From NCBI RefSeq assembly GCF_949628265.1, contig NC_088789.1:26157883-26221882 (forward strand): a stretch of DNA of 64,000 nucleotides, read 5' to 3'. The translations under genes were made by a program, and so were the position numbers. Of the stretch, positions 4,066 through 42,323 are shown in pieces. The stretch's first letter is position 1. Each line of letters starts with the position of its first letter. This stretch comes from Cloeon dipterum (lineage: Eukaryota; Arthropoda; Insecta; Ephemeroptera; Baetidae). The notes below the pieces were generated by a model that saw nothing but the letters and a program-made list of their open reading frames with translations, had not been told where the DNA came from and ran no database searches.

Positions 4066-4991
4066 ATGAAGACCGCTATTTTCGCTTTTGCACTCTTTTT
4101 CGTGGTTCTGGCACACGCTCTGCCAGTTAAGGATGAGCAGCTCAACGACCAGCGGAGTGAGCTGACTGAGACTGAACACGTTTTACGACGAGGTAATGTG
4201 TGCTCCGAAATTTTATCTCGTTCATTTTATTATCATTCTTTGAGGTTCAAACTTTAAATAGCCAAATGGATCAGTTTAAAAACTTGAAAATCATATGATA
4301 ATATTAAACTTTCAGTTTAGAATTGCTGGGTTTTTGAAAATTTAGAATTGAAATATTAGTTTAGAAAGTTAAAAAATCTTGACCAATATTTCCTTGAGGA
4401 TAGTCGGTATTTGATTAAAAGTTTCATATTTATTTTTTGTTTCATTAAATTGATATTTATATGATGTTTTTTTATATTTTTAAGAGTTTTTTCCTGTACT
4501 GTAATATTAGTGAGTTACATCAAAATTCAAGTATTCATTCAAATCATAAAATTGGTAGTGCGAAGCACATTTTAGAAAGAGAATATTGTCTTGCATTGTT
4601 TCGACATCATTAATCAGTCCGGCTAAGATCACATATTAATTTTGGGCAGAATACTTTAGGTCAATTGAAGCAAAAAATACAAACATAATAATTCCTCTTC
4701 GATAAATTATTTCCAACAATAAAATTCGTACTCGTTCATCGGTTCTAATTTAATTGAAACAATATTTTCACAGATGCGACAGAAGGGAATTTAATGTTAA
4801 AAATTTCACGGACAGAGAGGGCTGCTGATCCCAACCGTGGTCACCATGGACACCATGGCCATCATGGCCATCACGGACACCATGGCCATCATGGTCACCA
4901 TGGACACCATGGCCATCATGGACACCACGGACACCATGGCCATCATGGACACCACGGACACCATGGTCACCACGGACACCATCATGGATGA
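4066..4991 (+). CDS. H1: secreted His/Gly-rich propeptide, two exons
   Basis: Exons 4066-4192 and 4774-4991 (GT-AG) encode 114 residues. Residues 1 to about 20 are a signal peptide (MKTAIFAFALFFVVLAHALP). An acidic propeptide follows (DEQLNDQ, ELTETE) up to the intron near residue 43. Exon 2 carries SRTER, an R-x-x-R convertase site, then AADP and a run of about fifteen Gly-His-His triplets to the stop. The start is the first ATG after the TATA box, and the same start is conserved in all six paralogues. No known family could be named. The His run suggests Zn/Cu binding or pH-dependent activity, and the pro-region layout resembles insect antimicrobial precursors. H4 is its closest copy. A large palindrome sits at its poly(A) site. 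Confidence 0.8.
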
Positions 4992-5061
4992 AAATTATCC
5001 TTATAGTATTATCCTTCAAGTTCCTCCTGTATAATAGTTTGTTTTGTAAGCAATCAATAAA

Positions 5062-5837
5062 ATGTTGAATATAATTAAAACCAGGCTTCATCCTCGTTGT
5101 CAAATTAAAGAGAAATTCGTCTTCTTTATTTCTCGACCAGTTTCGACGTCACCAAGTACGTCCTAATCATGAGTTACAATTACAATCAAATAACAAACAA
5201 TACAATAATGTCACATCTAAAATCATATAAATTCCATACAATTTTTAAAAAAACACCCACCTATTCATGAGGCACTTGAGGCAAGCTCCAAAGACCAAAT
5301 GTAACAAATTCTAAGCCACCCCTTTGTTAAATAACACGCACATCTCACAGGTGGTAGGGAACCTTTTTGTTCCGTGAGCTAAATTTTCCCCTTTCAGCGC
5401 GTAAATTTTCTTTTTGGAGGCGGTTGCAATGGAATGCTCAGAAAACGTTATTAGTAACCCAAGCCACCTGCTTTGTGATGTGTGGAAAAATATTTTACGC
5501 GCTGAAAGGGGAAAATTTAGCTCACGGAACAAAAAGGTTCCCTACCACCTGTGAGATGTGCGTGTTATTTAACAAAGGGGTGGCTTAGAATTTGTTACAT
5601 TTGGTCTTTGGAGCTTGCCTCAAGTGCCTCATGAATAGGTGGGTGTTTTTTTAAAAATTGTATGGAATTTATATGATTTTAGATGTGACATTATTGTATT
5701 GTTTGTTATTTGATTGTAATTGTAACTCATGATTAGGACGTACTTGGTGACGTCGAAACTGGTCGAGAAATAAAGAAGACGAATTTCTCTTTAATTTGAC
5801 AACGAGGATGAAGCCTGGTTTTAATTATATTCAACAT
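5062..5837. repeat. Large near-perfect palindrome (foldback element)
   Basis: Arms of about 349 bp (5062-5410 and 5489-5837) are reverse complements with no mismatch noticed by eye, around a spacer of about 78 bp. It has no transposase-like frame; the two 73-residue open frames are mirror copies of each other. It lies at the poly(A) signal of H1: the 15-mer AATCAATAAAATGTT occurs just left of it (5055-5069) and again near 5871. H4 lacks it at the same place, so it is a recent insertion or rearrangement. Confidence 0.85.
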
Positions 5838-6229
5838 GAAAACAACCTCGAGTGGTCGCACTTTTCAAAAAATCAATAAAATGTTTATAATGAAAACATT
5901 ACCATATTTCATTTCAAAAAGGCTGAAAATAGAATGTCATCAAAAATATTGAATTGATGTAATTTGCACACTAATGTACTAAAATTAAGCTGCCTTGTGT
6001 AGCAGAATAAGCACCAGCCGTTGATTCTCCGGAATTGGCTGGACTTCTGTAGTTTTCAAAATAAATATATTTCTTTAAAAAAGAATCTTTGATTTAAAAA
6101 GCTTCTTATCTCTATGAATACATAATGATCTATAGCTTCTAGCTTTTATTTTCATAAAATTTTATAAAAAAAATACCCTAATTTAGAAAAGTGTACAAAA
6201 TCAGGAAAAATACCTTTAAGGAATATATG
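5838..6229. other. H1 3' flank
   Basis: Contains the second AATCAATAAAATG poly(A) signal. The rest is sequence homologous to the H4 3' flank (from about 21800), plus about 150 bp (5940-6080) not seen there. No gene is supported. Confidence 0.5.
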
Positions 6230-7090
6230 ATTCAAACGTCTAAATAATTGACTTAAAGATAGTATTTGGAGGGAAACTGCGTCATATTTGCTTTTTTATA
6301 ACTCAATCTGTAACATTCCCAAGGCTCTCTGTTCGTTGAAACTGACCTAACTTTTATTTTTCTTTCTCTCTCGTTGCTTGGAATGATAACGAACGCGACG
6401 AGCTCTATAATATTTTGCCGTTTATAAAAAACTCACCAGTTTAATAATGCAAATTAGGTAATTTTTATTCCTCTCTGATCGCAGAATTCTTTTCATTCCT
6501 GTTATGAGACTCTCGAGTGTTGTGCGAAAAAGATTTCTTAATTTTGAAATATTTCGAAAGAATATTAATCAAATTGTAATTATTATGAAGCACGATTTAA
6601 TGGAACTCATTTCATCAATTCACTCGAATTGGCAAATAAAGATAATCTCTAGAATGTTGTGGCGGTGCCTTCTCTCCACTACTGTCCTAGTAACTATAGT
6701 TTATGTGCATTTTAACCTGTATCATCAGGTAGCAGTGCAAAAGGTGTGCGATAAGCAGTGCACCCTTACTGCACCCCCAATGCATCTTTAGCCTCGTACG
6801 ACAGCATTCGCAACACAATATTCTCTCTCCGGCTCACAATCAGATGAGAATTCGTGCGAGAATATTCTTGAAACTTGCTTTGATCTCGAATTAATAATAC
6901 CCGCACTACTTACGGGTTGAGAATTATCAAATTGCATAATTAATAATTGTACGTGTTCAAAATTGATATTTTCATTTTCACATTATTTATTGTTTGTGAT
7001 TTAAGTTATTCGTGACATTTCACAGTCTTAACTTTACTACGTCCAACCACGAGACCTAAATAAAAGACGATTATTACACTACTAAAAGAC
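6230..7090. repeat. Dispersed module R1, copy after H1
   Basis: About 860 bp is repeated after H4 (22000-22865). Shorter copies are at 8520-8985 and about 25570-25640. It contains a TATA-like TTTATAAAAA and a short open frame (MRLSSVVRK) and ends in ACCTAAATAAAAGACG. The frame is broken in some copies, so it is not a likely gene. A solo LTR or other non-autonomous element is possible. Confidence 0.5.
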
Positions 7091-7567
7091 GTATTTCTAT
7101 CAGGGCTCCACGGACCCACAATGTGATTTTGAGAAAGTCCAAAAAATGTAATTCAAAAATTGATAGTTACCTGATTTCCTGTGCATTTAAGACAGTTTCT
7201 CAAAATTATCTCATATTATTATGAGATAAAGAAAACACATTTCATTTATTGTTTATGTAGCTGATCGTAAATTTTTGCTTAGAGTTATCCTTCGCAAACA
7301 GGTGCTAATTTTGCCAATATCTCAGCTGTCAGCGCGGGGATTCATCTTGCATTTGATTGCACTCAGTGTGTTTACGTCCGCTTGTGAGATCCGAGAATTA
7401 TTTGCTCTGCTATCGAAGTGAGCGGAGAGTAGTCGGGCAGTGCGCATGCAAAACGTACTCGCAAACGCGTATAAGAGAAAGGGTGTCGCAGCAAAATTCA
7501 ACCATTGCGCGTCAATATTTTCCTGCGGTCAAAACTATATAGCATTGCAATTTTTTTGGCACATTCC

Positions 7568-7717: not shown

Positions 7718-8289
7718 ATGAAGACCGCTATTTTGGCTTTTGTCCTCTTTTTCGTGGCTCTGGCACACGCTCTGCCAGTCCAGGATGAGCAGCTCGACGA
7801 CCAGCTGACTGAGCTGACCGAGACTGAATACGTTTTACAGCAAGGTAATATGTGCTCCGAAATTTAATCTCGGTCATTGTGTCATCATTATTTGAGGTTG
7901 AAACTCACAATAACCGGGCCTACTAATCATAAAATTGTTTTAGGAAAATATCTTTGTCTTGATTCGTTAGGACATCATTAAACAATCGGCAGCATTATTT
8001 TGGGCCAAATATTTCAAGTCAATCAGAGCAAAGAATACAAAAATAATAATTCCTCTTCCATAAATTATTTCCACCAACAGAATTCTTACTCATTCATCAG
8101 TTCTAATCTAATTAAAACAATGTTTTCACAGCTGCAGATGGAATTTTGGTGCGGCAAGTGAGGGCTGCTGACCCCCAATACAGAGGTCATTATGGTAATT
8201 ATGGTCACCACCACCACGGACACCATGGTCACTTCGGACACCATCATGGACACCATCATGGACACCACTACGGCCATTACCACGGATAA
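7718..8289 (+). CDS. H2: secreted His/Gly-rich propeptide, two exons
   Basis: Exons 7718-7844 and 8132-8289 encode 94 residues. A signal peptide (MKTAILAFVLFFVALAHALP) and acidic pro-region (QDEQLDDQ, ELTETEYVLQQ) are followed in exon 2 by LVRQVR (R-x-x-R), AADP and QYRGHYGNYGHH. The mature part is a mixed His/Gly/Tyr region less regular than in H1. The intron of 287 bp is the shortest in the array. Frame and splice phase are intact. Confidence 0.78.
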
Positions 8290-10306: not shown

Positions 10307-13300
10307 ATGAAGACCGCTATCTTGGCTCTTGTCCTCTTTACGGTGGCTCTGGCCCACGCTCTGCCAGTCCAGGATGAGCAGCTCGACGAGCAGCTGACTG
10401 ACTACGTTTTACAGCAAGGTAATATGTGCTCCGAAATTTAATCTCGGTCATTGTGTCATCATTATTTGAGGTTGAAACTCACAATAACCGGGCCTACTTG
10501 ATCATTTTAAAATATCGAACATCACTCGGGGGACATTAATCTTTCGGTTTTTAAAAAATTATATTTAAAATCTAATGGCCAAATGCCATTAATCAAAATT
10601 TTAGTTGAAAAGTAAGGAATGCCAGCTTATTTATTTAAATTCTAACCTTAAATAAGCAAAAGGTACGCAACTGAATTCTCATCCAGGATTTAAATCAAAT
10701 CAAGTTCAAGGGTTCGCTGCGGCCATCCGATTCGTAAATCTAATTGACACGAAATTCAAATTTCCGGGTGAAACAAAGAAAATGAGACTAGCGACACTTC
10801 AAGAAAATGAAAAATATACTGCTGCCAGTTTATTACAAAAGACTAAATATTGTATGGTGATGTGTCATCTTTTGTCTTGGCAAGTATTAAAAAAAAAGGA
10901 AGAGGTTAGTAGGGGTTTAACAATCGTGGTGTGAAATTTTGCGCTATCAAAAACATTATTTCGTACTCATCACTGTAAGAAAGGTCGAGTTCCAATCACA
11001 AAACAATTGTAGTCGAAGTTCTCCTGTTGCTCACAATGTATAGTGGTCGCAGTGGCTGCACGGCGAGGACCGGGTAGATGGTCTTGGGTGGACTCAGGGT
11101 GTCGAGGGTCCAAACCCGCCGCCCGTACGACGCCCGGGAAGGCTTCGCAGGCCGTCGATTCAAACAGTACAGAACGGCCCCGCAGGGCACCTGAGGTTAC
11201 AAGAAATTTGTCAGAAAGCGGCCAAAAATAAATCAAGTGCCCAGAAGTCACTTGGGAAAATAGGAAGCCCAAAGATTAAAACTGTAACTTACGTAGTAGT
11301 ACAGCTTAACAGTTAAATCGGATCCGACTCAGAATAGAAGTCGCAAGTTGGCTGAATGCACACCATCTACACGATGTGTGCTTCGCCAGTCAAGGGGTTT
11401 GGGCTTCTGACAAATTTACTTGCAGGCGAATACATATGCACTCGCCCCCACTTAGTGCCTGCTCAGGGTATAGGTTCGTCTATTTTAAATATAGGCGAAG
11501 GTGCACTCTTACAGCGAAAATTCACAATACATTGGTTCGCGCGAAACTTATACAATTCAAATTTTGATAGCGCTTGTGTGTAGGGGACATAGTGGAAGGA
11601 ATAGAGTAATAAAAAAATTAAAATAAATTATTCTCTTTTCGAATAATTACGTGTCTGATTTAATCTTAAGCCAATGAACTAAACAACGTTATACCTCCCC
11701 CCGTGCCTAAATTTTCCTTGGGAAACAGAACTGTTTTCCCATGGAAAATCAATTCACAGAAGGATGTTTTTTCAAATCCTTTGCATCAAAGTCACCAATA
11801 ACATTCCCATTCTCACCAATCAAAGTGAACATGTGTTGAGATTTTTGATTTACGATTTCGAATGGACCGACAAATGTGGGCAACAATTTAGCTGACATTC
11901 CCTCTCCTTTTTTAGAAAGCACAAAATTCCTTTTCATGACAAGATCTCCAACTTAAAAATTGCATGGCCGGCGTCTCAAATTGTAATGGTGCGCATTTTT
12001 CCTGTTTGCTGCTTGCATATATTCTTGAACTATTTTATATATTTTGTTCAATTTGGGAAAACGCTTGGCATATTTCTCAACAGGGTCTGCTACATTTTTG
12101 TCATTACTATTATCACGCGGTGCGTCAAAATTGTATAAATTCGGTTGTCTTCCAAATGCTAAGAAAAAAGGCGAATATTTTGTCGTTTCATGTACACTAG
12201 AGTTAATGGCAAAAGCTATTTCTTGCAAGTATTTATCCCAGTCTTTCTGATTGTCGGACACAAAACTTCGCATTATTGTCTCAAATACTCGGTTAACTCG
12301 CTCAGCAGGATTAGCTTGTGGGTGATATCGCGGTGTGTACTGCAAGGAAATGTTAAATTTCTTGGCTAACTCTTTAAAATCTTTACTCTGGTAAATCTTT
12401 GCGTTATCTTGGATCATTAACTCTGGCACGCCGTAGAGTAAGAATGATTTTTCCAACGCGGCGCAAACGCTTTTTGCCGTCGCGTCTCGCAATGGTGTTA
12501 AAATAACCATTTTGGAGAAAAAATCTTGCTGTGTGAGGACGTATTTATGCCCATTCGAACTCCGCGGCAACTCCCCCACTATATCTGAAGAAAAAACCTG
12601 CCAGGGTTTCTCGACCTGATGAGAACTCATATATCCCGCCTGTGCGGACTGACTGGCTTTCTGCTCCAAACAAGTGTGGCAGTTTGTCACGAACTTCGCA
12701 ATGTCACCACGCATTTTGGGCCAATAAAAATTTTCAGCAATTTTGTGAAACGTCTTAGTGAAGCCAAAATGACCTGCTTCAGGGCGTGCATGAAATCGGT
12801 TTAGTATTTCGGCTCTTTGTTCTTTGGGAATGACTTGTTTATAACACGACTCTTCCCAAGGGTTCCATGATTTTACTATTTTGAACAATTTACCATTCAC
12901 TACTTTAAATAATGGGAATTTTTGGGGATTGGTTTGCACTTTTTGCAACAAGTGCAAATACCAATTATCCTTTACGCGCGCGTCGGATGCAATGAGGCAC
13001 ATTTTTACTGGCGCGGAAAATGAACGTGAAAGCAAATCTGGCACCACATTTAATTTTCCCGGTTTGTGGTAAACATCAAAATTGTATTTCTGCAATTTAT
13101 AGACCCAGTTAGCTAATCTCCCTTTAGGATTTTTGAGGTCCTTAAGGAATTTCAGCGGCCTGTTGTCTGTAAAGAGCAAAAATTTATTATACGCCAGATA
13201 ACCCTCCAACCGCTCGATCGCCCAAACTATCGCTAGCGCTTCTTTGTGTATTGTTGGATACTTCTGCTCGGCTTCAGTCAAAACACGACTAACATAAAAC

Positions 13301-16300
13301 ACTGGGTGTTCGCCATCCTCAAACAATTGAGTAAGAACGCCGCTAATGCCCACATCGGACGCATCAGTTGACAGAATAAATTGTCTCGTAAAATCTGGTA
13401 AACGCACAAACGGATCTTTAATCAGTGCCTGTCTAATTGATGTAAATGCGGCCTCTTGCTCGCATTTCCATTCAAAAGCATTTTTCTTTCGCGTAAGTCT
13501 TGTCAAAGGTTCAACAACGGTACTAAAATTATCGATCAAACGCCTATAATAGGAAATGGCACCAAGCAACATTTTAACCTCTTTAATATTTGCCGGCCTT
13601 TTAAGTTGCAAAATCGATTGAATTTTGTCCGGATCTGGATGTAACCCGTTTTCATCCAATAAATAACCTAACATCTTCATTGAACTACGTAGGAATTTAC
13701 TTTTTCCCCAATTTGGAGTCATATTCGCTTCTCTAATCAAGCGGAAGAATTCTCGAAGCACCTCAAAATGTAACTCAAGCGTCGGCGTACCGAGAAACAC
13801 ATCGTCTATATATACCTTAAGATACTTTTTGATCCAAGAGTTCCCAATAATCTTGTCAAACACCCTCATGAAAGCTGGACCACTGTTGATAGCCCCAAAT
13901 GGCACTACTTTAAACTGAAATTGGCCCTTCTGAGGAATGAAAAAGGCTGTTTTAGGTTTACTTTCATTATCAAGTGGTATTTGCCAATAGCTTTTCCGGA
14001 AATCAACCGAGCTAATGTATTTAAACTCGCCCAAGTGATCAAGAATTGTGGCCAAAATCGGTACTGCATACGCGTCAGGTGTTGTAACTTTATTCAGCTC
14101 CCGTAAATCTAATACAAATCTTGGTTCTGTTCCTTTCGCTTCATTCCGCACAAAAAATCCTGGAGCGTTCCAAGGGCTTTTAGCTTCCTCAATCACGTCC
14201 ATTTCAAGCAACTCATCAACGGTTTTGTGCATTACCACGAGCTCTGGTGGAGCAATATAATATTGCTTGCATTTCACCGGTTTTGCGTCTCCCGTGTCGA
14301 TGTGATGTTCGAATTGAACGCGTCCTAACTTAGTTGGAAAACTATCTCGCATTTCGGCAATAAATGTTTCTAATTCAGCTTTGTCGTGCTCACCTAACTT
14401 GTTACCATCCGCTAATACTGCTGCTGCTTTTGGCTGGTTACCTTTTTCACCCGCGCACGAAATATGCCAAGTGCCTTTCTTCACGTCAGGAATAAATCCG
14501 GTTTTTAGCCAAAAATCTAAGCCTAGAATTAAGGATTGTTCAATTTTAGGGACCACCAACGCCGAAATCAAAAAAGATTTATTGTCCAAAATGATGGGTA
14601 AATCTACGCTCCCTATCACTTCATTATACGAATTGTCGGCTAATTCAACTCGCCTAACACTCGTCTTGTCTATATGTAATCCTAACTGGTCGATGACCGG
14701 CATGCCCGGACCTCCGACAATGCACACAGATGCACCACAATCCAACAATGCAGTCAGTTGTTTATTTACTACACATACGTCTAAAAATAATCTGTCATCG
14801 TCCAAAAGTGACTGAAACTTTCGTTCATTCTCACTCGCGCGCAGTGAATTTTGTCGCAATTTATTCTTTATTGCCGCAATTTTCACGCGTATTGTCTCTG
14901 TCCGAAATCGATCTACATGGCACTTCCATTCCCGTCTTGTTTGACAGCGGGCCGCGGCGACGAAGTGCTCGTATCGGTCGGGCCCCTTGGCACGTTTTTT
15001 GCCATTTGACTGCATCTCTCATTCGTACACTTTGACTTAACCACACCTGACTTCCCACAAGAGTAACAAAATTTATTTGCTACGTTAGAAGGACAATAAA
15101 CAAATCTATGTCCCGGTTTACGGCAATTCCAGCACACTCTGTCTGCACTCTCTGCAGTCGCATTTCGCACAAACAATGGATTTGGTTTTGCTAAACCCGG
15201 CACATAGTTCAATTTCTTGTCTTTCCCTTCAGTTTGTCGCGCCGCGCCTTCACTCGCAGAAGCCGCCTGCTGCTGCTTCTTTTCGCTCGCAATCGCGCAC
15301 GCTTTCTTCTCGTTTGTCTTTTTCTCGTTCGCTCGCTTTTTCTCCTCGTATCTATACACTAATTTTGGCTCGACGGGATTTTCTGGAGTTTGCGGCTCCT
15401 TGTATGTCTGAATTCTACACTGGACCTTCTCCAGTTTCAGTCCCTCCCTGACTAAATCGTGCAATGAATGAATATCCTCGAGTGGCAATTTATCCAATGA
15501 AACTGGATTCAAACGCGCAATAATGAACTCGAGCTTCTCCGCGTCACTCGGCGGTTTCGCTAGCAGTGAAAAACTCTGCTTCATCTCAGCCACATAAATA
15601 TTCAAACGTTCATCTACTCCCTGCGTTCGCAATCTAAGTTGATGCCACAATCGCTCGTCATAATTCGGAGGTTTAAAATTCTGCAAGAAATCCGGTACAA
15701 AATCAGCCCACGAACTCCAACACTCGCGGTTCGCCATGAACCAAGTTCTCGCTTGTCCCACGAACAAGTTGTGCGCGGCCAACCAAATCTCGCGATCAGT
15801 CAAATTACTCTCGCTCTTCTTCAACTCGAATTCGCGCAGAAACTCGGCGAAACTTAACTCAGATTTAGAATCTCCGTCAAATTTCAATTTCCAGTCCCGG
15901 ACCGAAATAACTTTCCCTCGTTTCCGCGATTCTGTCAACGACTCCGTGATAGGCCACACCTTGGCCTGTCCATCGCTTGCCAAAATCGGAATTGGTTGTT
16001 TCGACTCTTCATCTACAATCATCGGCATGTACAAAAGTGACCCTGCGGTTAATTTTGCCCTGCCTTGAGGCGTCGAGTGCGCCGCAACCGCGTTCTCTTC
16101 ACGCGCGTTGTTTGCATTGCCCTCGCTCTCTTCATCATCATCCGAGTCCCCGGCTCCCAAAATCTGAATCGACAAATTTAGTTGCTGTTCTTGGCGGTCG
16201 ACAGGTCCAGCTGTCACTCCCGACCCACCCTGTTGCTTTTGCTCATCCACGTTACCTTTGCACACGCGCGCGTAAGCTCTCTCTAAATGCTGCCTCAAAA

Positions 16301-18796
16301 ACTGGATATTTTGAGTTGTTTTAACCGCATCTTCAGGGGGAAATAGTCTGCAAAGTCGGTCGCGAAAAAATGCAATATGCGTTTTCACCTTCCGCATCTC
16401 CGTTTGATTTTGCCCTGAAGCAGCTGATCTCGCCCACGTTTTCACATTCTCTACACTAGTCGTCAGCCTCGCAAGCTCGTCGGTAATCTCGGCTACATCT
16501 GTAACTTTGATTTCCTCGATTTCACCCGCAAGAACTGCAGCGCGCGCGGTTTTCAATTCGTCTCTCAAAGTTTTCAGAGTTTTGTCTCCGATCTCAATAC
16601 CACGGAACTCACATTCTAGCTTAACATAATCATCTGTCAAACGGTCAAACTCAATGTTCAGCCGTTCCATCTTGAACTCAAACTAAATCTTTAAATCAAC
16701 AATCAAAATTAAATGAATGCACACACAAAATCTAAAAATCAATTCAAACTCTGCCTTAGAATTAAATTGAATAAACGACAACGAAATCGAAAATTACGAT
16801 CTAGAGAGGAATTTACAATGGAAGTTCGCCCCTAATCTCGCATTCCACGACTCAACAAAATTCAACAAATTTCTCAACGCACTCGCAATTAATGTAATGC
16901 TACTAACGCAAGAAATTTACACAAAACTGCAACAGGATCGCAACGCAACAATTTGTAGTCAGCCAAAAATTTCAATAATGGGAATTGAAATGTCCAAGAA
17001 AATGCACTTTATAAATAGAAGAATTCAAATTACTTTAGGGAACCGAATGTCGCATTTGACAAATTCAAGGGATGCCATCTAATGGCCAAATGCCATTAAT
17101 CAAAATTTTAGTTGAAAAGTAAGGAATGCCAGCTTATTTATTTAAATTCTAACCTTAAATAAGCAAAAGGTACGCAACTGAATTCTCATCCAGGATTTAA
17201 ATCAAATCAAGTTCAAGGGTTCGCTGCGGCCATCCGATTCGTAAATCTAATTGACACGAAATTCAAATTTCCGGGTGAAACAAAGAAAATGAGACTAGCG
17301 ACACTTCAAGAAAATGAAAAATATACTGCTGCCAGTTTATTACAAAAGACTAAATATTGTATGGTGATGTGTCATCTTTTGTCTTGGCAAGTATTAAAAA
17401 AAAAGGAAGAGGTTAGTAGGGGTTTAACAATCGTGGTGTGAAATTTTGCGCTATCAAAAACATTATTTCGTACTCATCACTGTAAGAAAGGTCGAGTTCC
17501 AATCACAAAACAATTGTAGTCGAAGTTCTCCTGTTGCTCACAATGTATAGTGGTCGCAGTGGCTGCACGGCGAGGACCGGGTAGATGGTCTTGGGTGGAC
17601 TCAGGGTGTCGAGGGTCCAAACCCGCCGCCCGTACGACGCCCGGGAAGGCTTCGCAGGCCGTCGATTCAAACAGTACAGAACGGCCCCGCAGGGCACCTG
17701 AGGTTACAAGAAATTTGTCAGAAAGCGGCCAAAAATAAATCAAGTGCCCAGAAGTCACTTGGGAAAATAGGAAGCCCAAAGATTAAAACTGTAACTTACG
17801 TAGTAGTACAGCTTAACAGTTAAATCGGATCCGACTCAGAATAGAAGTCGCAAGTTGGCTGAATGCACACCATCTACACGATGTGTGCTTCGCCAGTCAA
17901 GGGGTTTGGGCTTCTGACAAATTTACTTGCAGGCGAATACATATGCACTCGCCCCCACTTAGTGCCTGCTCAGGGTATAGGTTCGTCTATTTTAAATATA
18001 GGCGAAGGTGCACTCTTACAGCGAAAATTCACAATACATTGGTTCGCGCGAAACTTATACAATTCAAATTTTGATAGCGCTTGTGTGTAGGGGACATAGT
18101 GGAAGGAATAGAGTAATAAAAAAATTAAAATAAATTATTCTCTTTTCGAATAATTACGTGTCTGATTTAATCTTAAGCCAATGAACTAAACAACGTTATA
18201 AAAATATTGTTTAGAAAATTAAAAATAAATCTCTACCAAGATTTCCTTGAAAACAGTGGGTTTGTTCATTAAGTTCATTTTTTTCCATTTAATCAATTTA
18301 CATGTTGATTTATTTTTAAATTAGTCAAGGTCGAGATTTTTTGTTTTGCTGTTTTATAAGTGAGTCACATCAAAATTACAAGCTAGTGAAGCATTCATTC
18401 AAATCATAAAATTTTTTTAGGAAAATATCTTTGTCTTGATTCGTTAGGACATCATTAAACAATCGGCAGCATTATTTTGGGCCAAATATTTCAAGTCAAT
18501 CAGAGCAATGAATACAAAAATAATAATTCCTCTTCCATCAATTATTTCCACCAGCAGAATTCTTACTCATTTATCAGTTCTAATCTAATTAAAACAATGT
18601 TTTCACAGCTGCGGATGGAATTTTGGTGCGGCAAGTGAGGGCTGCTGATCCCCAGTATGGCTTTGGCGGATACAGACCTCATTATGGTCACCATGGCCAC
18701 CACGGACACCATGGTCACCACGGACACCATCATGGACACCATGGACACCATCATGGACACCACCATGGCCATCACCACGGACACCATTACGGATAA
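10307..18796 (+). CDS. H3: secreted His/Gly-rich propeptide, intron hosts a retrotransposon
   Basis: Exons 10307-10418 and 18609-18796 encode 99 residues. Signal peptide MKTAILALVLFTVALAHALP; pro-region QDEQLDEQLTDYVLQQ; exon 2 has LVRQVR, AADP, QYGFGGYRPHYG and a His/Gly-rich tail. The coding frame and splice sites are intact, but the intron is 8190 bp because a gypsy element occupies 10572-18200. Without it the intron would be about 560 bp, as in H5 and H6. H6 encodes an almost identical protein. Whether the gene is still expressed cannot be told from sequence. Confidence 0.72.
10572..11693 (-). repeat. Gypsy element LTR (downstream end of element)
   Basis: 1122 bp, starting TATAACGTT and ending CATTAG in element orientation. 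Identical by eye to 17079-18200, including every short open frame in it. It is preceded by the purine tract. Confidence 0.92.
11749..15015 (-). CDS. Gypsy element pol region (fossil entry)
   Basis: Domains in order: aspartic protease (LLDCGASVCIVGG), reverse transcriptase with YIDDVFLG, RNase H (LSTDASDVGISGVL), integrase zinc domain (HARPEAGHFG, CHTC) and DDE catalytic core (IQDNAKIY). It overlaps the end of gag by about 100 bp in another frame, an arrangement for which this superfamily commonly uses programmed frameshifting. The region looks near-whole with about one apparent break. Confidence 0.9.
14913..16670 (-). CDS. Gypsy element gag (fossil entry)
   Basis: 585-residue open frame with a capsid-like middle (WFMANRECWSSW, RLRTQGVDERLNIYVAEMKQ) and a C-terminal zinc knuckle CWNCRKPGHRFVYC, after a Lys/Glu-rich linker. 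It forms the 5' frame of the element and overlaps pol at its end. Confidence 0.9.
   Translation of the reverse strand: MERLNIEFDRLTDDYVKLECEFRGIEIGDKTLKTLRDELKTARAAVLAGEIEEIKVTDVAEITDELARLTTSVENVKTWARSAASGQNQTEMRKVKTHIAFFRDRLCRLFPPEDAVKTTQNIQFLRQHLERAYARVCKGNVDEQKQQGGSGVTAGPVDRQEQQLNLSIQILGAGDSDDDEESEGNANNAREENAVAAHSTPQGRAKLTAGSLLYMPMIVDEESKQPIPILASDGQAKVWPITESLTESRKRGKVISVRDWKLKFDGDSKSELSFAEFLREFELKKSESNLTDREIWLAAHNLFVGQARTWFMANRECWSSWADFVPDFLQNFKPPNYDERLWHQLRLRTQGVDERLNIYVAEMKQSFSLLAKPPSDAEKLEFIIARLNPVSLDKLPLEDIHSLHDLVREGLKLEKVQCRIQTYKEPQTPENPVEPKLVYRYEEKKRANEKKTNEKKACAIASEKKQQQAASASEGAARQTEGKDKKLNYVPGLAKPNPLFVRNATAESADRVCWNCRKPGHRFVYCPSNVANKFCYSCGKSGVVKSKCTNERCSQMAKNVPRGPTDTSTSSPRPAVKQDGNGSAM
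17079..18200 (-). repeat. Gypsy element LTR (upstream end of element)
   Basis: 1122 bp, the same length and sequence by eye as 10572-11693. The primer-binding site follows inside the element. Confidence 0.92.
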
Positions 18797-30559: not shown

Positions 30560-30625
30560 GGAAAGCCCCACGAACCAGACGCAGGGAGTCCCTTTGCCCA
30601 AGCGACACAAGCGGCAGTATAAAAG
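30560..30625 (+). promoter_or_regulatory. G1 promoter: kappaB consensus match and TATA box
   Basis: GGAAAGCCCC at 30560-30569 is GGGGCTTTCC on the minus strand, a full match to GGGRNYYYCC. TATAAAAG lies at 30618-30625, 58 bp downstream. CAGACGCAGGGAGTCC between them is shared with G2 and G3. Confidence 0.65.
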
Positions 30626-30661: not shown

Positions 30662-31435
30662 ATGCGTTTCTCAGTTAGCACTGCTTTCGCGCTTGCATTC
30701 GTCGTGCTGGCCGGCACTCTCTGCGCCGTGTCCTGCCTCCCAGCTCCAGAACAAATCCAAGATGGACCAAACCCGCTTCTGGAAGAGACTGCATTTGGTA
30801 AGGATAAAAAGCTAGAATATTATTAATTAATTTAAGACTCCTTTAATACATGTAATTTTAATCAGTAACCTCTAAAAATTTGATTCCAAAAGGAATTATT
30901 TATGGCATAAAATATTATGTAAGCCAAATTCGCTATTTTGTTTCACGCAAAGAAAAAAATCTAATAAAATTCTGTAAGGGAGAAAAACGGCACAGGGCTC
31001 AATTAAGCCTGTCCAATTTTATTTTTTTCTTTGCGTTTTTCGCTCGTCTCCCTCGAACCTTTTTGTGCCAAACATATTTTTTATTATTTTTATTCTCATT
31101 TCTTCTCGAAGAATAAATTACTAATACATCGCTTTTTAAATTATAACTGTGTTTAGGGAGAAAAATGAAGATTTTTTTTCAAGCAAGAGACCAACAGACT
31201 TGTTACAGAGATTTAATTCCTTCCTTTTTTAGGAGACAATGCAATGCCTGCCGAAGAAGTTCCATCTGCAGGAGTGCGCCAAGCCAGAGCACCTACTTTC
31301 TTCCCGTCGGTGAACGTCTACCCTAGCTATCCCTCCTACTATCCCTATGGCTATTACGGCGGCAACCGCATCGTAATCCACAAGAGAATCGGCTACGGCT
31401 ATGGTGGCTATGGCTATCCGCATTATTACTATTAA
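30662..31435 (+). CDS. G1: secreted Tyr/Gly-rich propeptide, two exons
   Basis: Exons 30662-30797 and 31233-31435 encode 112 residues. Residues 1-25 are a signal peptide (MRFSVSTAFALAFVVLAGTL). The pro-region LPAPEQIQDGPNPLLEETAF continues into exon 2 as GDNAMPAEEVPSAG. Then come VRQAR (R-x-x-R) and the predicted mature peptide APTFFPSVNVYP, ending in Tyr/Gly repeats (YGYYGG, GYGYGGYG, HYYY). Two basic stretches (NRIVIHKR) make the mature part cationic while the pro-region is acidic. An ACAATAAA poly(A) signal follows near 31540. No named family could be matched; similar composition is seen in YGG-type antimicrobial peptides and in cuticle proteins. Confidence 0.8.
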
Positions 31436-32626: not shown

Positions 32627-32681
32627 GGAAAATCCCGAGAACAGACGCAGAGAGTCCTTTGCCCCAGCAACCATATAAAAG
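32627..32681 (+). promoter_or_regulatory. G2 promoter: kappaB consensus match and TATA box
   Basis: GGAAAATCCC at 32627-32636 is GGGATTTTCC on the minus strand, a full GGGRNYYYCC match. It lies 47 bp upstream of TATAAAAG at 32674-32681. Confidence 0.68.
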
Positions 32682-32720: not shown

Positions 32721-33486
32721 ATGCGCTTCTCTGTTGTTTCTGGATTTACGCTCGCACTCATCCTGCTGGTTGGCGCTTTCTGCGCCGTGTCCAGCTTACC
32801 AGCTCCGGAAAAAGTCCAAGATGGACCTAATCAGCTTTTAGACGAGTCTGCTTTTGGTGAGAATCTTCAGTTTTTAATCTATTTTCGCAAACAGACCCCT
32901 AGCCCCTTTTTTGTAAAATTATTTTTCCATTTAATTTCCCATCTTTAACGAAGTTAATTTAGATTAGGAGACAATAGTTTAAATATCAGGGGACCTTTCT
33001 TTGCAAAATGTTACTCACCTCTAATTTAAAATTAAGTTGTAGCAGCTTTTCGTCAGTCAAAATCAAATCGATTGTTTATTAAAATCGAGGATCACTTCTC
33101 CTTTAATCAAACTATCAAGTCTCATTGTAAATTTAAAGAATAACTGAAAATTGTTATAAAAATGGCTACATTTTGTTTGGTAAAACGTTGCCAGTTCAAA
33201 ATTTAAGTCTTATCAATCATATTTTAAATATTTGCTGCCTGGAAAACCCAAATAGCACTAGTTTTCATGATCTATAATTATCTTTTTAGGCGACGACACC
33301 GAGCCTGCTGAAAATGTCGCGCCGTCAGGAGTGCGCCAAGCCAGGGCTCCGACCTTCTTCCCAACAGTGCGTGTCTACCCCAGCTACCCCAGCTACTACC
33401 CCTATGGCTACTACGGCGGCAACCGCATCATTATCCACAAGAGATACGGCTACGGCTATGGTGGCTATCCGCATTATTATTATTAA
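32721..33486 (+). CDS. G2: secreted Tyr/Gly-rich propeptide, two exons
   Basis: Exons 32721-32856 and 33290-33486 encode 110 residues. Signal peptide MRFSVVSGFTLALILLVGAF; pro-region LPAPEKVQDGPNQLLDESAF then GDDTEPAENVAPSG; cleavage site VRQAR; mature APTFFPTVRVYPSYPS with GYYGG and GYGYGGYPHYYY at the end. An in-frame ATG 18 bp upstream (32703) would add MSVQSK. The later ATG was chosen because all paralogues start there and it gives a standard signal peptide. G1 is its closest relative. Confidence 0.8.
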
Positions 33487-34642: not shown

Positions 34643-34700
34643 GGAAAATCCCGAGAAGAAGAGATGCAGGGAGTCCTCTGCCCCGGCGACCATATAAAAG
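34643..34700 (+). promoter_or_regulatory. G3 promoter: kappaB consensus match and TATA box
   Basis: GGAAAATCCC at 34643-34652 (reverse GGGATTTTCC) lies 50 bp upstream of TATAAAAG at 34693-34700. The same decamer sits at G2. Confidence 0.68.
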
Positions 34701-34736: not shown

Positions 34737-36104
34737 ATGCGTTCCTCGGTCGTCTCTGGATTTTCGCTTGCCCTCTTCCTGCTGGTCGGCACTTTTTGCG
34801 CCGTGTCCAGCCTTCCGGCTCCAGAACAAATCCAAGATGGGCCGAATCCACTTTTGGACGAGAGTTTGTTCGGTGAGGATTGAATTTTTCATTCCTTTTG
34901 CTTTTTGGTCAACCTAGAAAATGTTGTCAACCTTTTGTCATCTTTTTTTCAATTTAGGTGTAGGAATTTAAAATCTTCCTTAGGAAATTTTCTAAGATTT
35001 TAAAGCTTTTGTTAATTTTAATTCTGGTGAGAAACTAAAATAAATAAAATATATGTGATTTTTTATGATATGTCAGAGCTGATGGGGTGCTGGATTTTTT
35101 TTTGTATCTTCTGTATGATGGAATTAATAGTAAAATTGTTAAGGTTTTTTTTCATTCGAAGAAAACCTTTCTGTTAATTAAATAATTGAATTTGTCCACT
35201 TCGCTAAAAAGTTTGAACTTTTTTTCGGATATTTTTCCGGATCCAAAGGCTTAAGTAAAATTACTTCAAAGTGATTGAAATTTTAGGTCTGCTATGGATT
35301 TGCTGTTTAATTGTTTTAAGAAATTCATAATTTTACACTTTTTTAAAGGCATCTTAGCAAAAAAATGGCATTGTAAAAAATGTGAACATCAACATGTTTC
35401 AGATGCACATCTGTTGTTAGAGCAACCTGCTCAGAAATTTTAGAAATTAATTAATTTTACTATTTGATAGTTTCCATATTTCATTAATTGTTTTTAACGT
35501 CACTTGCAACCAGGATTAGCCAATTTTGCAATGCGTAAAAATTAACAAAAACAGCTTAAAACCCCTACCAGTTTTCGGTTTTCCCGCATTATTCCGACTT
35601 TAACCCCGAAAAGGTCACATTTCGCGTTAAAAAATAACAAATTTTGAAAAATTCTGATCGATGGTGTTTAAATTTTCGGTCTTTTGGTGAAACCAGTGGC
35701 TTTTATACTGATTTTGTTGAAATCCCTTTTTTGTCATCCATCATGAGAATTTTTTAACTTCAATTAAAATGCACGTGTTTCGGAAAATGCGCAAAATTGC
35801 AAAAAAAAAACATTTTTTTCCAGAAAAATGCGGGTTTTGTGATCCCTGCCTGGAACATCCCTTATAAGTTCGTTTAATATTTCCAGGTGGCATGCCTGCT
35901 GAGGATGAACCGTCTGCAGGAGTGCGGCAAGCAAGGGCTCCGACGTTCTTCGGTCCATCGATCCGCGTCTACTCTGGTGGCTATGGCCATGGCTACCCTA
36001 TCTATCGGCCATACGGATATTACGGCGGCGGCAGCCGCATCATAATCACCAAGAGGCTGGGTGGCTATGGTTACGGTGGCTACGGCGGCCACTACTATTA
36101 CTAA
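34737..36104 (+). CDS. G3: secreted Tyr/Gly-rich propeptide, two exons
   Basis: Exons 34737-34872 and 35887-36104 encode 117 residues. Signal peptide MRSSVVSGFSLALFLLVGTF; pro-region LPAPEQIQDGPNPLLDESLF then GGMPAEDEPSAG; VRQAR site; mature APTFFGPSIRVYSGGYGHGY, with SRIIITKR and a GGYGYGGYGGHYYY end. It is richer in Gly than G1 and G2 and has an intron of about 1 kb. Exon 1 is 136 bp, the same as in G1, G2, G4 and G5. Confidence 0.8.
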
Positions 36105-36597: not shown

Positions 36598-38174
36598 ATG
36601 CGTTGCTTGCTAGGTGCACAGTATCCGCTGGCAATCCTTCTGCTGGCCAACGCCTTTAGCGCCGTGAGCTGCATTCCGCTTCCAGATCAAGTTCAAGACA
36701 ACCCAGTCCATTCGCCGGACGAGACTAATTTGAGTGAGTGTTTTAAGCTATTTTACGCATTTTAATTTCTTAATAATCTCCTGTTTCCTAAACCAAAAGT
36801 AGACAGTTTCATCAAAATAGCAAGAAACGTTTTTCGTCTTATCAGCTCAATGATTGAATATCATCTTTTTCTTAAAAAATTGGGCAGAACAGCCCGTTGG
36901 CTCGCATTGTTAAGGCACTCTCAGGAGTGTCAAAGCAATGAGAGGTATTTGAGCAGTTCGGAGATCTAATACTGGCTACCCAATGTCAAGAAATGGCAAA
37001 AAAGTGGTTAGTTTAGTGACTCAAATTGCTCAAATTGCTCAACGGGCTGGGAGGCGCACCGGCGCCGACTCGCTACTTGCTGGTTTGCACCTTTCCAGCA
37101 TGCGTGATTTGGCTTCACGGGACAAATGTCTAGCGTTTCAATGCAGTCCTCGGTGCGGAGGCAAGTGGCCCTTCAGTGGGCTGGGTCCCTGTGCGGCCTG
37201 GTGCGCCCATGTTATCCGTTCGCGGTGTTATTCGCACTCGGAATTCAGCATTCGTGCTAGTGCAGTGCGCGCCCTTCCCGGTCCTCCGGTCCTCGGACAG
37301 GGATAAAAAGAGCAAAAAAAAAACAGATTTTAAGGCATTTAAAAATTACGTGGCCGAAGCTCAGGTGTAGGATGGCGTGAGCGATTTTATTTTCTGTACA
37401 ATTCATTCACTATATTCCCACCCATTCTTTAGTTTTAGTAACTTTTTTAGGATAATGCCATACATAATTAAATCTTTAAGCTGACCCGCATTTTATATGA
37501 ATTATTTACAGATTTTCCTAATAATCAAAGTAAACGTACATAAACAAAGCCAATGATCTGCTAGGGGAAAGCCACTCTGCGTATTTTTCAAATCAGCTTA
37601 GCCTACTATAATAATTATTAGATGAAGATTATTTTGCTATCAGAGAAATAATCAAGATTTTTTCGCATAAATCCAGATGAACAAAATTTCTAGATTAATC
37701 ATGGAAACAGCTTTTAAAATGGGGAAAACATTTTTGTTTTTATTTCTTGTATTTGATAATTCTTGTTTACTATTATAATTTGTAAAAATTTCTGTCTTTC
37801 GAAAGAGAGAAGATAAAATTTTGATTTAATTTTAAGGAGACGAAGTTATACCCGACATAGATGTGCCGTCCGGTGTTCGCCAAGCCAGGGCTCCGCTGTT
37901 CTTTCCATTGCCCGTTCGTGGCTACTCGAGCTTCTATCGGCCTCATGGATATTATGGCAACAACCGCTATGTGAGCTACCGGAGGCCAAACAGTGGTTCC
38001 ATCCTGAGCATTTTCGGACTGCGCCTCTTCCCAGGTTCTGGATCGTCATCATCGAACCCGGACCCTCACCCTCATGTTACTGGCCCTCCCCACCCTCATG
38101 TAACTGGCCCTCCCCACATTCCACATATTCCACATCAACCCCCACCCCATCCACATGTGCAACACCGTGTGTAA
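36598..38174 (+). CDS. G4: secreted propeptide with Pro/His-rich tail, two exons
   Basis: Exons 36598-36733 and 37837-38174 encode 157 residues. Signal peptide MRCLLGAQYPLAILLLANAF; pro-region IPLPDQVQDNPVHSPDETNL, then RDEVIPDIDVPSG; VRQAR cleavage site; mature APLFFPLPVRGYSSFYRPHG with a middle hydrophobic/basic stretch (SILSIFGLRLFPGSG) and a C-terminal region of HPHVTGPPHPH and IPHIPHQPPPHPH type. The tail is absent from G1-G3. The FGLRLF stretch could be amphipathic. The intron contains a SINE. G5 is a tandem duplicate. Confidence 0.8.
36891..37322 (+). mobile_element. tRNA-like SINE in G4 intron
   Basis: About 430 bp of GC-rich DNA present in the G4 intron and absent from the otherwise homologous G5 intron. 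It starts GCCCGTTGGCTCGCATTG and TTAAGGCACT, resembling a pol III A box. GTTCGGAGATC could be a B-box remnant. It ends in an A-rich tail (GGGATAAAAAGAGC then A10). The flanks AACAG/ACAG suggest a short target duplication. Two more copies lie at 50512-50830 and 56510-56828 on the other strand. Confidence 0.65.
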
Positions 38175-39043: not shown

Positions 39044-40570
39044 ATGCTTTGCATGCTGGGTGCACAGTATCCGTTGGCAATCCTTCTGCTGGCCAACGCC
39101 TTTAGCGCCGTGAGCTGCATTCCGCTTCCAGAACAAGTTCAAGACAACCCAGTCCAGTTGCCAGACGAGACTAATTTGAGTGAGTGTTTTAGGCTATTTT
39201 ACGCATTTTAATTTCTTAATCTCCTGTTTCCTGAACCTGAAAAGGAAAAATAGGCAGTTTCATCAAACAAGCCAGCACCGTGTTTCGTTTTATCTCAGCT
39301 CAATGATTGAATATCATCTTTTCTTTAAAAAAAAATTGGGTGGAACAGATTTTGAAGCATTTAAAATTATTCTTTATTTTCATCAAATGGGGGAAGCAAT
39401 TGATAAATCGATTTTTGAGGTGTTAATGTTTTTGAAGGATAATGCCAATGCCACATTTAATTACAATTTAACGTTTGCCTGCATTTCAAATGAATTATTT
39501 TCTGATTTTCCTAATAATAAAAGTAACATACATAAAAGGTCAATGATCTGCTATGGAAAAGCCACTCTATTTAATTTTTAAATCAGCTTCATAAATCATT
39601 ATTAGCAGACGATTATTTTACTATCAGGGAAAAAAATCTTGATTTTTTCGCATAAGTCCAGATAAGCAAAATTTCCAGGGTAACCATGGAAACAGCTTTT
39701 AAAATTGGAGAACACATTGTGAACGATAAGAGGAATGATACTGCAAAAGCCTGGAAAATGCTTGTTGCCAATACATAAAATCGTCCTTTAGGATTCAGTT
39801 AAAGCCTAAATTGACCTAAGAAACACTGGAAAGTTACCATGCTTTTCAAATGGTAATGGCTGTCTCCTTGCTTGAAATCCGATTTAATTTCAAAACCAAG
39901 AGTTTCCCCAATAAGTGGCATACACCGTTGAACAGATCTCGACGAGAGGAATCGGAATATGCCAAGAAAACATGTTCAAGCACTGTAAATTTTGGAGAAA
40001 ATTGGCAAAATTTGAATTTTTACAGTAGGAAGGTCCTTTTTTATAATTGCAAATTGTTGAACAAATTGTTTATCGATCAATTGTTTATGGCATCCAACAA
40101 TTCAAATAATTTTCTATTATTGCCATCATTATCATTCCACTTAAATAACTGATGTTTATTCTCACAACTAATCAAATTTTCATTGTTGCCCGCTGAAAGA
40201 TGAAATTTCGATTTTCTTTCCAGGAGACAAAGCTACACCTGATGTTCATGTGTCGTCCTTTGTTCGCCAAGCCAGGGCTCCGCTGTTCTTTCCAACGTTT
40301 TTTCGAGGCTACCCGAGTTTCCAGCAGCCTTATGGATATCATGGCAACAACCGCTATGCGAGCTACGGTAGGCCAAACAGTGGTTCCATCCTGAACCTTT
40401 TCGGACTGCGCCTCTTCCCAGGTTCTGGATCGTCTTCGTCATCATCGATCCCGAACCCTCCTCACCATCATATTGACACTGGGCCTCCCCATATGCATCA
40501 AGAGCCCCACATTCCACACATTCCACATATTCCCAATCCACCCCCACCCCATCCACAACATCATCATTAA
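39044..40570 (+). CDS. G5: secreted propeptide with Pro/His-rich tail, two exons
   Basis: Exons 39044-39179 and 40224-40570 encode 160 residues. Signal peptide MLCMLGAQYPLAILLLANAF; pro-region IPLPEQVQDNPVQLPDETNL then RDKATPDVHVSSF; VRQAR site; mature APLFFPTFFRGYPSFQQPYG, then SILNLFGLRLFPGSGSS and a His/Pro tail (HHHIDTGPPHMHQEPH, HPQHHH). It lies about 2.4 kb after G4 in a tandem duplication. The residue before VRQAR is Phe rather than Gly, unlike the other four. Its intron contains repeat R4 instead of the SINE. Confidence 0.8.
39730..40147. repeat. Dispersed repeat R4, copy in G5 intron
   Basis: Near-identical to 29802-30225. It is missing from the homologous G4 intron, so it was inserted after the G4/G5 duplication or lost from G4. 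Confidence 0.65.
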
Positions 40571-41584
40571 GTTTCTGCACAAAATGATCAAAGATTTTCA
40601 CTGTATTCGACTTAGTTTCGTTAGAAAATTTATTTATCTTTAGCAGTGTTACTCATTAGAATAATTTATATTAATTTGAATATATTTTGTACGTTTTTTA
40701 TTAAATCAAATGATTCACGAAAAATACCTTTTTTCTCATACAAACCCTTTTCAGATATAATAAAAAGAGATCGCATTCGCTTTAATCACATGAAATGACA
40801 CAGAAAGCTAGATATCAACAGTTATTCCAATATAAAATCAACTTACTGTTTAATGATCTGAATGATCATGCAATTATAAGGAAGATCGCAAGCTAATAAC
40901 TATACTTTAGTGGATATGAACAGCACAATTCTGAACAAATATTTTTCTCTTTTAATGGAAATATTCCTACAAAATTGAGAAAATAGTTGAGTTTTGGCAA
41001 TATTTGATATTTTTTATTGTTTGTCAGTCCAAATTTCATTAGTGTTAAAAAATTATTAATTTGCACTATTTTGCTAGACCTAATAATAACTAGAAAATAT
41101 TGATAAACTCAGAGGGAACTGCAGGGAAGTCATTTATTTCTTCCAGATGATTTATTAATGTTCCACTAACATTTGTATTATATTTTAATTGTATTGAAAA
41201 ATAACCAAAAAGCCAACAAATTGAGAAGACAGGCTTAATTCCAATTAAACCTAATAAGATAATGGCAAGTCACTGAGACATTTAAGAGGTCGATTTCTCT
41301 GTTTGATTTGCAGTGGCACTCTTACACACCGCTAAATTCGCCTGCGCCAAAAAAAGAAAGCCCGATCATCAGCGAAGATTAGAAAACGGTAAATGAGCAA
41401 AAGTGAGCGCTGTTTGTGTGTGTGTATATATGTGCGTTGATTTGAGGGCAGCTAGACATATCATCTCTTATTCTTATCCCGCGGCAGGCGGGAGATCAAC
41501 GCTCGCAAAAAGTTCGTCTATATAATCACCGCGAGATCGCAATAAGCGATTCCGAGACGCGAAACCTGCTGACGCAGGATGCGA
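40571..41584. other. Intergenic region G5-G6
   Basis: The first half is the duplicated G5 3' flank. A short GT/TA microsatellite lies at about 41411-41436. Towards G6 the sequence turns GC-richer. No additional gene is supported. Confidence 0.5.
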
Positions 41585-41651
41585 GGAAAGCCGCCGGCCG
41601 AACCGGTTCCACGTGCGGCTCATCCAAACCAGCGCACTTCGCGTATAAAAG
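41585..41651 (+). promoter_or_regulatory. G6 promoter
   Basis: TATAAAAG lies at 41644-41651. GGAAAGCCGC at 41585-41594, 59 bp upstream, is one base off the G1 kappaB site (GGAAAGCCCC at 58 bp). TTCCACGTGCGG further on holds a CACGTG E-box. The surrounding DNA is GC-richer than at other promoters. Confidence 0.5.
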
Positions 41652-41699
41652 GTGCAGGCCGACAGCGGGCCACTGCATTCGCTCCTTGAGACTGCGAAC

Positions 41700-42323
41700 A
41701 TGAAGGTTGCCCTTTTCACCTGTGCCGTGCTGCTCCTGGTGGCTGCTGCCACTGCCTTCCCCTATGCCGTGATTGGTGAGTAAATTAAATCCTGCTTCAA
41801 TTCACAAAAGAAATTTGCCAGAAAAGAGAAAATTCGGTCGTAACTCAACCTTTAAAACAGAATCTGTGATTTTAAATTAGATAGAAACTGATAAAAAAAC
41901 ATTTATTTTGAAAGTTTTGATTTTGATACACCTTTTCTCTCGATCGTGCACTAAAAAATATTATTTCTTTGGACTCCAGAGTACGAGGTTCCTGAGGAAA
42001 ACGTCAGAGTGGTCAGGTCTCCGCAGTACGGCCGCCCTGGCTACGGACACGGAGGAGGAGGAGGATACCGCCCCCAGCACGGATACAGACCACAAGGCGG
42101 CGGATACTACCCTGGAGGCGGTTTCGGAGGCGGCGGATTCAGCGGCAGTGCCTCCAGTGCTAACGCCGCCAGCCAGAGTTTCGGCGGTGGTGGATTCGGC
42201 GGCAGTGCCTCCAGTGCCAACGCTGCCAGCCAGTCTTTCGGGTAAGAAATCTGAGATGGATTAAAATCTAAAACATCATTTTTATCGTGAATTCTCTCTT
42301 TCTGTCACAGATTTGGCGGCTAA
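41700..42323 (+). CDS. G6: secreted Gly/Ser-rich propeptide, three exons
   Basis: Exons 41700-41775, 41980-42241 and 42311-42323 encode 116 residues. Signal peptide MKVALFTCAVLLLVAAATAF; short acidic pro-region EYEVPEENV; RVVR (R-x-x-R) followed by SPQYGRPGYGHGG. The mature part has GGGG runs and two copies of GSASSANAASQSFG, then ends GFGG. The last exon is only 13 bp. The design matches H and G genes (short pro-region, R-x-x-R, X-Pro), but the sequence is not clearly homologous to them. Gly-rich antimicrobial, cuticle and silk proteins are all conceivable. Confidence 0.75.

Follow-up and report, generated by a model that had tools for sequence, protein, structure and literature searches.

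What do the twelve adjacent genes at positions 4066-42323 of this stretch of the genome of the mayfly Cloeon dipterum release from the secreted precursors that they encode, and are these products antimicrobial, as a preliminary description of the locus had proposed? The window, i.e. the whole stretch of 64,000 nucleotides, corresponds to C4:26157883-26221882 (C4 being contig NC_088789.1), and its genes are referred to as H1-H6 and G1-G6. A tandem array of some two dozen genes for secreted precursors, probably immune effectors, has these twelve at its downstream end.

Twelve intact genes with a common putative processing site

All introns of the twelve gene models are GT-AG, and each model reads intact from its ATG to a stop. 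A signal peptide (judged by the hydrophobic exon 1), an acidic pro-region and an R-x-x-R site had been announced for each of them, and all twelve carry these elements at exactly the coordinates given. The genes also share a first intron in phase 1, a TATAAA at -42 to -64 from the ATG and an AATAAA at most 400 bases past the stop. Eleven consist of two exons; G6 has a second intron, hence three exons, the first of 76 bases. H1-H6 constitute one paralog family and G1-G5 a second, G6, which has an exon 1 of its own, representing a third. Three of the proteins are letter-identical to RefSeq entries named 'uncharacterized': G1 (LOC135942869, 112 residues), G2 (LOC135943526) and G5 (LOC135944188). 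Another record, P0004, differs from G3 at one residue.

In all twelve proteins R-x-x-R is followed by Ala or Ser and then by Ala or Pro, a succession that shuffling the post-signal part of each protein 5000 times produces in 0 to 1.8% of cases. Since H1-H6 are paralogs, as are G1-G5, and G6 stands apart, this amounts to about three independent cases and not twelve. Upstream of the site the pro-region has a net charge of -2 to -6 throughout. Downstream of it the mature parts are of low complexity (41-97 residues): those of H contain 16-33 His and 10-17 Gly per 41-56 residues, and those of the six G proteins carry a charge of +2 to +6, His not counted. The residues behind the site had been given as Ala-Ala-Asp-Pro, Ala-Pro or Ser-Pro. 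This holds for eleven genes, in which an X-Ala/X-Pro dipeptidyl site precedes the mature part, and fails for the second pair of H5, which is DS (AADS).

The distance between R-x-x-R and the next Gln was surveyed in 40 proteins, namely the twelve of the window, twelve exons found upstream of it (U1-U12, see below) and 16 proteins found with a profile (P0005 left out). A Gln occurs within five residues of the site in 22 of them, a count that includes P0009, the other record of U7, and in which many proteins are related, so that the 22 do not represent independent events. The distance is 0 in two (U9, P0018), 2 in fifteen and 4 in five (H2, H3, H5, H6, P0011), never 1, 3 or 5, and in 18 of the 20 proteins with a non-empty gap the latter is made of X-Ala/X-Pro pairs: SP, AA, AADP or SADP. 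Three relatives devoid of R-x-x-R (P0013, P0016 and P0023) have AP-QF directly behind the signal. The gap thus varies by whole pairs ahead of a kept Gln, the pattern that stepwise trimming by a dipeptidyl peptidase would maintain; cleavage followed by such trimming is predicted for these proteins.

The preliminary description also held that the site is conserved while the tails vary. This is the case in G1-G3: over VRQARAPTFF, summing the three pairs, 13 of 23.5 synonymous sites differ and none of 66.5 nonsynonymous sites, against nonsynonymous differences of 38.3 per 217.3 sites in the pro-region and 40.8 per 261.7 in the remaining mature part. G4 and G5 are identical over the 30 bases of the site and hence uninformative on selection. 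In another Cloeon record, P0005, the site reads RQARTP: Pro is kept and Ala changed. The claim does not extend to H, where the inner residues of the site vary (RTER, RQVR, RSER, REVR) and the tails of H1 and H4 are conserved. In H2, H3, H5 and H6 the site is no better conserved than the pro-region (nonsynonymous divergence, dN, 0.061 vs 0.017). The His-His-Gly (HHG) tails, of 15 units in H1 and 13 in H4, vary at codon position 3 and not at positions 1 and 2, which argues for selection on the protein and counter to free growth of the repeat. Selection thus acts on the protein sequence in G1-G3 and in H1/H4.

Promoters and the case for immune effectors

The canonical kappaB pattern is GGGRNNYYCC. 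It is present within 260 bp before the ATG of G1, G2, G3, U1, U2 and U6, and GGGGAWTYYY within the same interval before H1, H3, H4 and H6. We counted 21 promoters, leaving out U8, U10 and U12 because no exon 1 with its TATA box could be assigned to them convincingly; the exons 1 of U1 and U9 are guesses. Of the 21, 10 have a kappaB-like site no more than 110 bp before the TATA box. Controls have one far less often: 3 of 290 TATA boxes from 38 loci (cuticle genes and others), and 1 of the 216 remaining TATA boxes of the array region. With GGGRNNYYCC alone the figures are 6 of 21 and 2 of 290 controls. Counted by paralog group, a kappaB-like site is present in 4 out of 9, where dinucleotide shuffles would give 0.67 (P 0.002). 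GGGRNNYYCC had been fixed before the upstream genes were examined, and it appears in 2 of 6 groups when these genes are taken alone (P 0.003). The TATA-anchored controls replaced a first set of cuticle-gene promoters, where kappaB sites were found in none and the ATG was doubtful at 5 of 30 loci. Sites matching the Relish consensus of PMC12419901, both strands and overlaps included, number 2.95 per promoter; the mean over 350 GC-matched control windows is 1.29.

The layout of the precursors matches that of known insect antimicrobial peptides (AMPs). A furin site and a two-residue dipeptidyl site are described as common in AMPs in a Drosophila study (PMC9233930), an X-Ala/X-Pro site is often present in AMPs (PMC12419901), and the units of ant hymenoptaecin come after RR-EAEP, with Gln first in all but the first unit (PMC3415428). 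The array shares with ant hymenoptaecin, Drosocin/Buletin and attacins the signal, the convertase site and the X-Ala/X-Pro dipeptides; unlike theirs, its mature parts are simple repeats. The precursor plan is known, and the array and the tails are new. The AMP-precursor reading of the preliminary description is strengthened, not proven, by the kappaB enrichment, the two-residue gap steps and the signs of selection in G1-G3 and H1/H4.

We propose the following course. Each gene would be transcribed from its TATA promoter and, in the many cases with a Relish-type kappaB site, induced through it. Exon 1 encodes the signal peptide together with the beginning of the acidic pro-region. After R-x-x-R the chain would be cut by a furin-type convertase, and a dipeptidyl peptidase would then take off AA and DP, AP or SP. 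What is freed would be a peptide of low complexity and about 4-11 kDa, with an N-terminal Gln, open to pyroglutamate formation, in H2, H3, H6 and G6. The HHG-repeat peptides of H may work through Zn or Cu binding and through the charge that they acquire at low pH, and the Gly/Tyr-rich peptides of G and G6 may kill bacteria or fungi.

Several observations weigh against immune effectors. Without protonation of His the mature parts of the six H proteins have a net charge of 0. The site is a minimal R-x-x-R in the twelve genes, with no Lys or Arg at P2. The gap rule has two exceptions, H5 (AADS) and P0015 (RR), and the dipeptides have no Gln behind them in H1 and H4 (Asn), in G1-G5 (Thr or Leu) and in U8, U11 and U12. 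As to the promoters, 11 of the 21 have no strict kappaB site, namely U3, U4, U5, U7, U9, U11 and the five window genes H2, H5, G4, G5 and G6 (7 of the 12 window genes have one). GGGGAWTYYY was chosen after the H promoters had been seen, the control TATA boxes are not known promoters, and a stricter TATA pattern leaves a control of 1 in 32, too small for a tight comparison. The Dif/Dorsal consensus, as spelt in the text of PMC12419901, is not enriched (1.38 vs 1.28). A last point is that long GGGGP- and GNHGN-repeat genes of structural appearance separate the upstream genes from the window (C4:26133-26157 kb).

These neighbours also favour another explanation, in which the genes encode structural or lining proteins (cuticle, gill, egg coat, adhesive) of epidermis or glands and R-x-x-R serves assembly instead of effector release. 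We regard it as rather unlikely. The Gly/Tyr/His-rich composition would suit it and PF07172 (GRP) matches H2 and G6, under its cut-off; but Chitin_bind_4 matches none of the five proteins submitted to the Pfam scan (H1, H2, G1, G4 and G6) and none of its 94 matches in the genome falls inside the array. In addition, kappaB sites are rare near TATA boxes in cuticle and other control loci (the 3 of 290 above), and X-Ala/X-Pro steps ahead of Gln fit released and trimmed peptides.

Collagen-like or metal-storage proteins are a quite improbable alternative. Formally the tails of H consist of Gly-X-Y repeats, which might assemble or serve to store metal, and H1 exceeds the Pfam collagen cut-off (35.9 vs 27.2 bits); of the two H proteins scanned, however, H2 did not match, and the triplets are Gly-His-His without proline, in 13-15 units in H1/H4 and irregular in H2, H3, H5 and H6. 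Precursors of neuropeptide or hormone type, with R-x-x-R as the cleavage point, are very improbable: the signal-like exon 1, pro-region and convertase site would agree with them, but each of the twelve precursors has a single R-x-x-R, no amidation signal was seen, the mature parts are low-complexity stretches of 41-97 residues, and the genes are multiplied in tandem with divergent tails.

Comparison of the candidate immune effectors with AMP families gave no assignment. No AMP family of Pfam was above cut-off for the five scanned proteins (PF08194 DIM reached 10.9 bits with H2 for a cut-off of 20.8), nor was anything in NCBIfam for four proteins. Genome searches with Defensin_2 and Attacin_C returned no match, controls included, and so do not show classical AMPs to be absent. 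H shares a Gly/His-rich mature part with the antifungal peptides holotricin 3, tenecin 3 and shepherin, which are rich in Gly and, in the case of shepherin I, in His, a likeness in composition only: in H, unlike these, His exceeds Gly and a pro-region with R-x-x-R is present. According to PMC10698721, shepherin I, a Gly/His-rich plant peptide, is antifungal once Zn(II) fibrils form; its parallel with the HHG tails is an analogy, not kinship. No literature on mayfly AMPs was found among open-licence papers (Cloeon dipterum, Ephemera danica, Ephemeroptera), those retrieved dealing with medicinal or edible insects. In the available part of the Cloeon genome paper (PMC7250882), 'defence response' is one of the terms attached to clusters that are high during the aquatic phase, and no array gene is named there; in a gill regeneration paper (PMC11597413) the word 'antimicrobial' is absent.

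If the immune reading is true, the array, with constant cutting signals and a changing released peptide, would be a natural test for the origin of new defence peptides, and it gives defined peptide masses to seek in haemolymph. The average masses calculated for the trimmed peptides, with no pyroglutamate, are 5783.8 Da (H1), 5426.5 Da (H3 and H6), 5481.0 Da (G1), 5380.9 Da (G2) and 7061.2 Da (G6); the dipeptides, if still attached, would add about 354 Da in H1, H3 and H6, 168 Da in G1 and G2, and 184 Da in G6.

Extent of the array and relatives outside it

About twelve further genes of like build lie 31-101 kb upstream of the window, between 26,056 and 26,127 kb of C4 (105 kb were read); these secreted Gly-rich genes are part of one array with those of the window. 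R-x-x-R is present in 9 of the 12 upstream exons, followed by SP in U2-U5, U7, U8, U11 and U12 and by Q in U9; U1, U6 and U10 have none within the stretch listed. Paralogs of G6 are located at C4:26064-26088 kb, 111-135 kb upstream of G6. In the rest of the genome (190.1 Mb, 10 contigs) the G and H queries gave no match at E<=1 except a weak one on C1 (0.317), the best candidates only being scored.

G6 by itself was searched within its own genome, and outside sequences were searched with a profile built from G6 plus four of the upstream genes, which retained 17 proteins at E<=1e-3 out of 7993 scored: 3 from Cloeon, one from the midge Culicoides brevitarsis (P0016), one from the midge Chironomus riparius (P0023) and 12 others. 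P0014, P0017, P0020 and P0022 possess a signal-like start, R-V-[AV]-R-SPQF and SANAASQSF repeats. Repeats of the SANAASQSF type, with AP-QF or SP-QF after the signal or R-x-x-R, are common to G6 and to the secreted Gly-rich proteins P0023, P0016 and those encoded on the jgi, lgn and ena contigs. With the midge proteins the E values are modest (7e-6 and 4e-4), the sequences being repetitive, and neither P0016 nor P0023, whose source names give no function, has the R-x-x-R of G6. Judged from these matches, G6 is a member of a Gly-rich SANAASQSF family with midge relatives. The family had been thought to stand alone; this is contradicted by the relatives of G6 in midges and other sequences, and by the continuation of the array upstream of the window. 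Mosquitoes have small uncharacterised Gly-rich secreted proteins, infection-induced and some of them clustered, six type D paralogs sitting together in Aedes (PMC11003161, PMC10945403); their kinship with G6 is suggested through the midge relatives P0016 and P0023 only.

The link between H and G6 was assessed by Smith-Waterman alignment, the figures below being how many of 1000 shuffles reach the score. H2, H3, H5 and H6 gave 0 with both P0011 and U11, and H1 gave 1 with P0011. With G6 the figure is 2 for H3 and H6, and 86 for H2. Comparisons of H with G4 gave 0 to 30, H3 with G1 82 and H5 with G1 360; H5 with U2 gave 143, H1 with U2 782 and H1 with U7 612. The H-G6 link is thus fair and that of G1-G5 to the rest weak. 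In the alignment of P0011 (RVVRSADPQYGHRPGYGG) with H3 (RQVRAADPQYGFGGYRP) the score is 76 for a shuffled mean of 27, which suggests that H is a precursor of G6 type in which HHG repeats have taken the place of the Gly-rich tail.

One may go further, tentatively: the maturation cassette, with its phase-1 intron, acidic pro-region, R-x-x-R, X-Ala/X-Pro steps and Gln, would be a single ancestral unit, kept while the released part was swapped wholesale (SANAASQSF, HHG, Tyr/Gly, Pro/His). In this way an insect from an early branch of the winged insects would have obtained an array of some two dozen effectors under the control of Relish, zinc-armed His-repeat peptides included.

An H profile retrieved one protein, P0008, without the R-x-x-R design; it scored only the candidates sharing most words, so that absence of H elsewhere is not implied. 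As a genome probe, the codon pattern of VRQARAP has 17 matches in the own genome (G1-G5 account for five), fewer than the 23 of the reversed pattern; this motif alone is uninformative outside the array.

U9 and U10 (C4:26088453-26091621) stand out by their C-terminal part (GITGSAGQSFSQNY...TGPNGQRIP), which is less repetitive, is resembled by P0015 and is possibly a new domain. No Pfam family was above cut-off for this part, and a PDB search with U9 as sole query gave no match.

Coordinates and neighbouring elements

Table 1. Genes of the window, upstream exons and kappaB-like sites (a slash marks the end of R-x-x-R; C4 precedes contig coordinates, all others being those of the window)
Feature	Position (strand)	Exons	Description
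H1	4066..4991 (+)	4066-4192, 4774-4991	signal, acidic pro-region, RTER/AADP-NRG, 15 HHG units
H2	7718..8289 (+)	7718-7844, 8132-8289	RQVR/AADP-QYRGHYG
H3	10307..18796 (+)	10307-10418, 18609-18796	RQVR/AADP-QYGFGGYRP; long terminal repeat (LTR) retroelement inside 8.2 kb intron
H4	20834..21739 (+)	20834-20960, 21540-21739	RSER/AADP-NRG, 13 HHG units
H5	23506..24369 (+)	23506-23617, 24191-24369	REVR/AADS-QFGFGGYRP
H6	26222..27054 (+)	26222-26333, 26867-27054	REVR/AADP-QYGFGGYRP; mature part identical to that of H3
G1 (LOC135942869)	30662..31435 (+)	30662-30797, 31233-31435	RQAR/AP-TFFP, Tyr/Gly-rich
G2 (LOC135943526)	32721..33486 (+)	32721-32856, 33290-33486	RQAR/AP-TFFP, Tyr/Gly-rich
G3	34737..36104 (+)	34737-34872, 35887-36104	RQAR/AP-TFFG, Tyr/Gly-rich
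G4	36598..38174 (+)	36598-36733, 37837-38174	RQAR/AP-LFFP, end Pro/His-rich
G5 (LOC135944188)	39044..40570 (+)	39044-39179, 40224-40570	RQAR/AP-LFFP, end Pro/His-rich
G6	41700..42323 (+)	41700-41775, 41980-42241, 42311-42323	RVVR/SP-QYGRPGYG, Gly-rich, two GSASSANAASQSFG repeats
U1-U6, exon 2	C4:26058795, 26064436, 26067797, 26070389, 26072323, 26075357		region C4:26055000-26134999
U7-U12, exon 2	C4:26078300, 26083264, 26088453, 26091232, 26120907, 26126228		region C4:26055000-26134999
kappaB-like site of H1	3956..3965 (-)		GGGGAATTTC, 110 bp ahead of ATG
kappaB-like sites of H3, H4, H6	-112 from ATG		GGGGAATTTT
kappaB-like site of G1	30560..30569 (-)		GGGGCTTTCC, 102 bp ahead of ATG
kappaB-like site of G2	32627..32636 (-)		GGGATTTTCC, 94 bp ahead of ATG
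kappaB-like site of G3	34643..34652 (-)		GGGATTTTCC, 94 bp ahead of ATG

The retroelement in the intron of H3 (10570-17376, minus strand) is Gypsy-like, as named from the look of its open reading frames (ORFs) of 585 and 1020 aa. A 300 nt piece is present at both its ends with 100% identity, which suggests a recent insertion. An inverted repeat (5062-5413 and 5486-5837; arms of 352 nt, 99% complementary, 72 nt spacer) starts about at the expected polyadenylation point of H1, and is either a foldback element or the product of an inverted duplication that took place locally and recently.

The repeat genes upstream of the window, at C4:26133905, 26137070, 26146920 and 26151414, are two duplicated long-GGGGP-repeat genes, in which RRRAR-QA precedes the repeats, and two GNHGN-repeat genes, all with the look of structural secreted proteins. 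Downstream of the array, a segment occurs in three copies spaced by about 6 kb (46554-59970), and an ORF within it (59203-59619, minus strand) may, we presume, resemble phospholipid scramblase.

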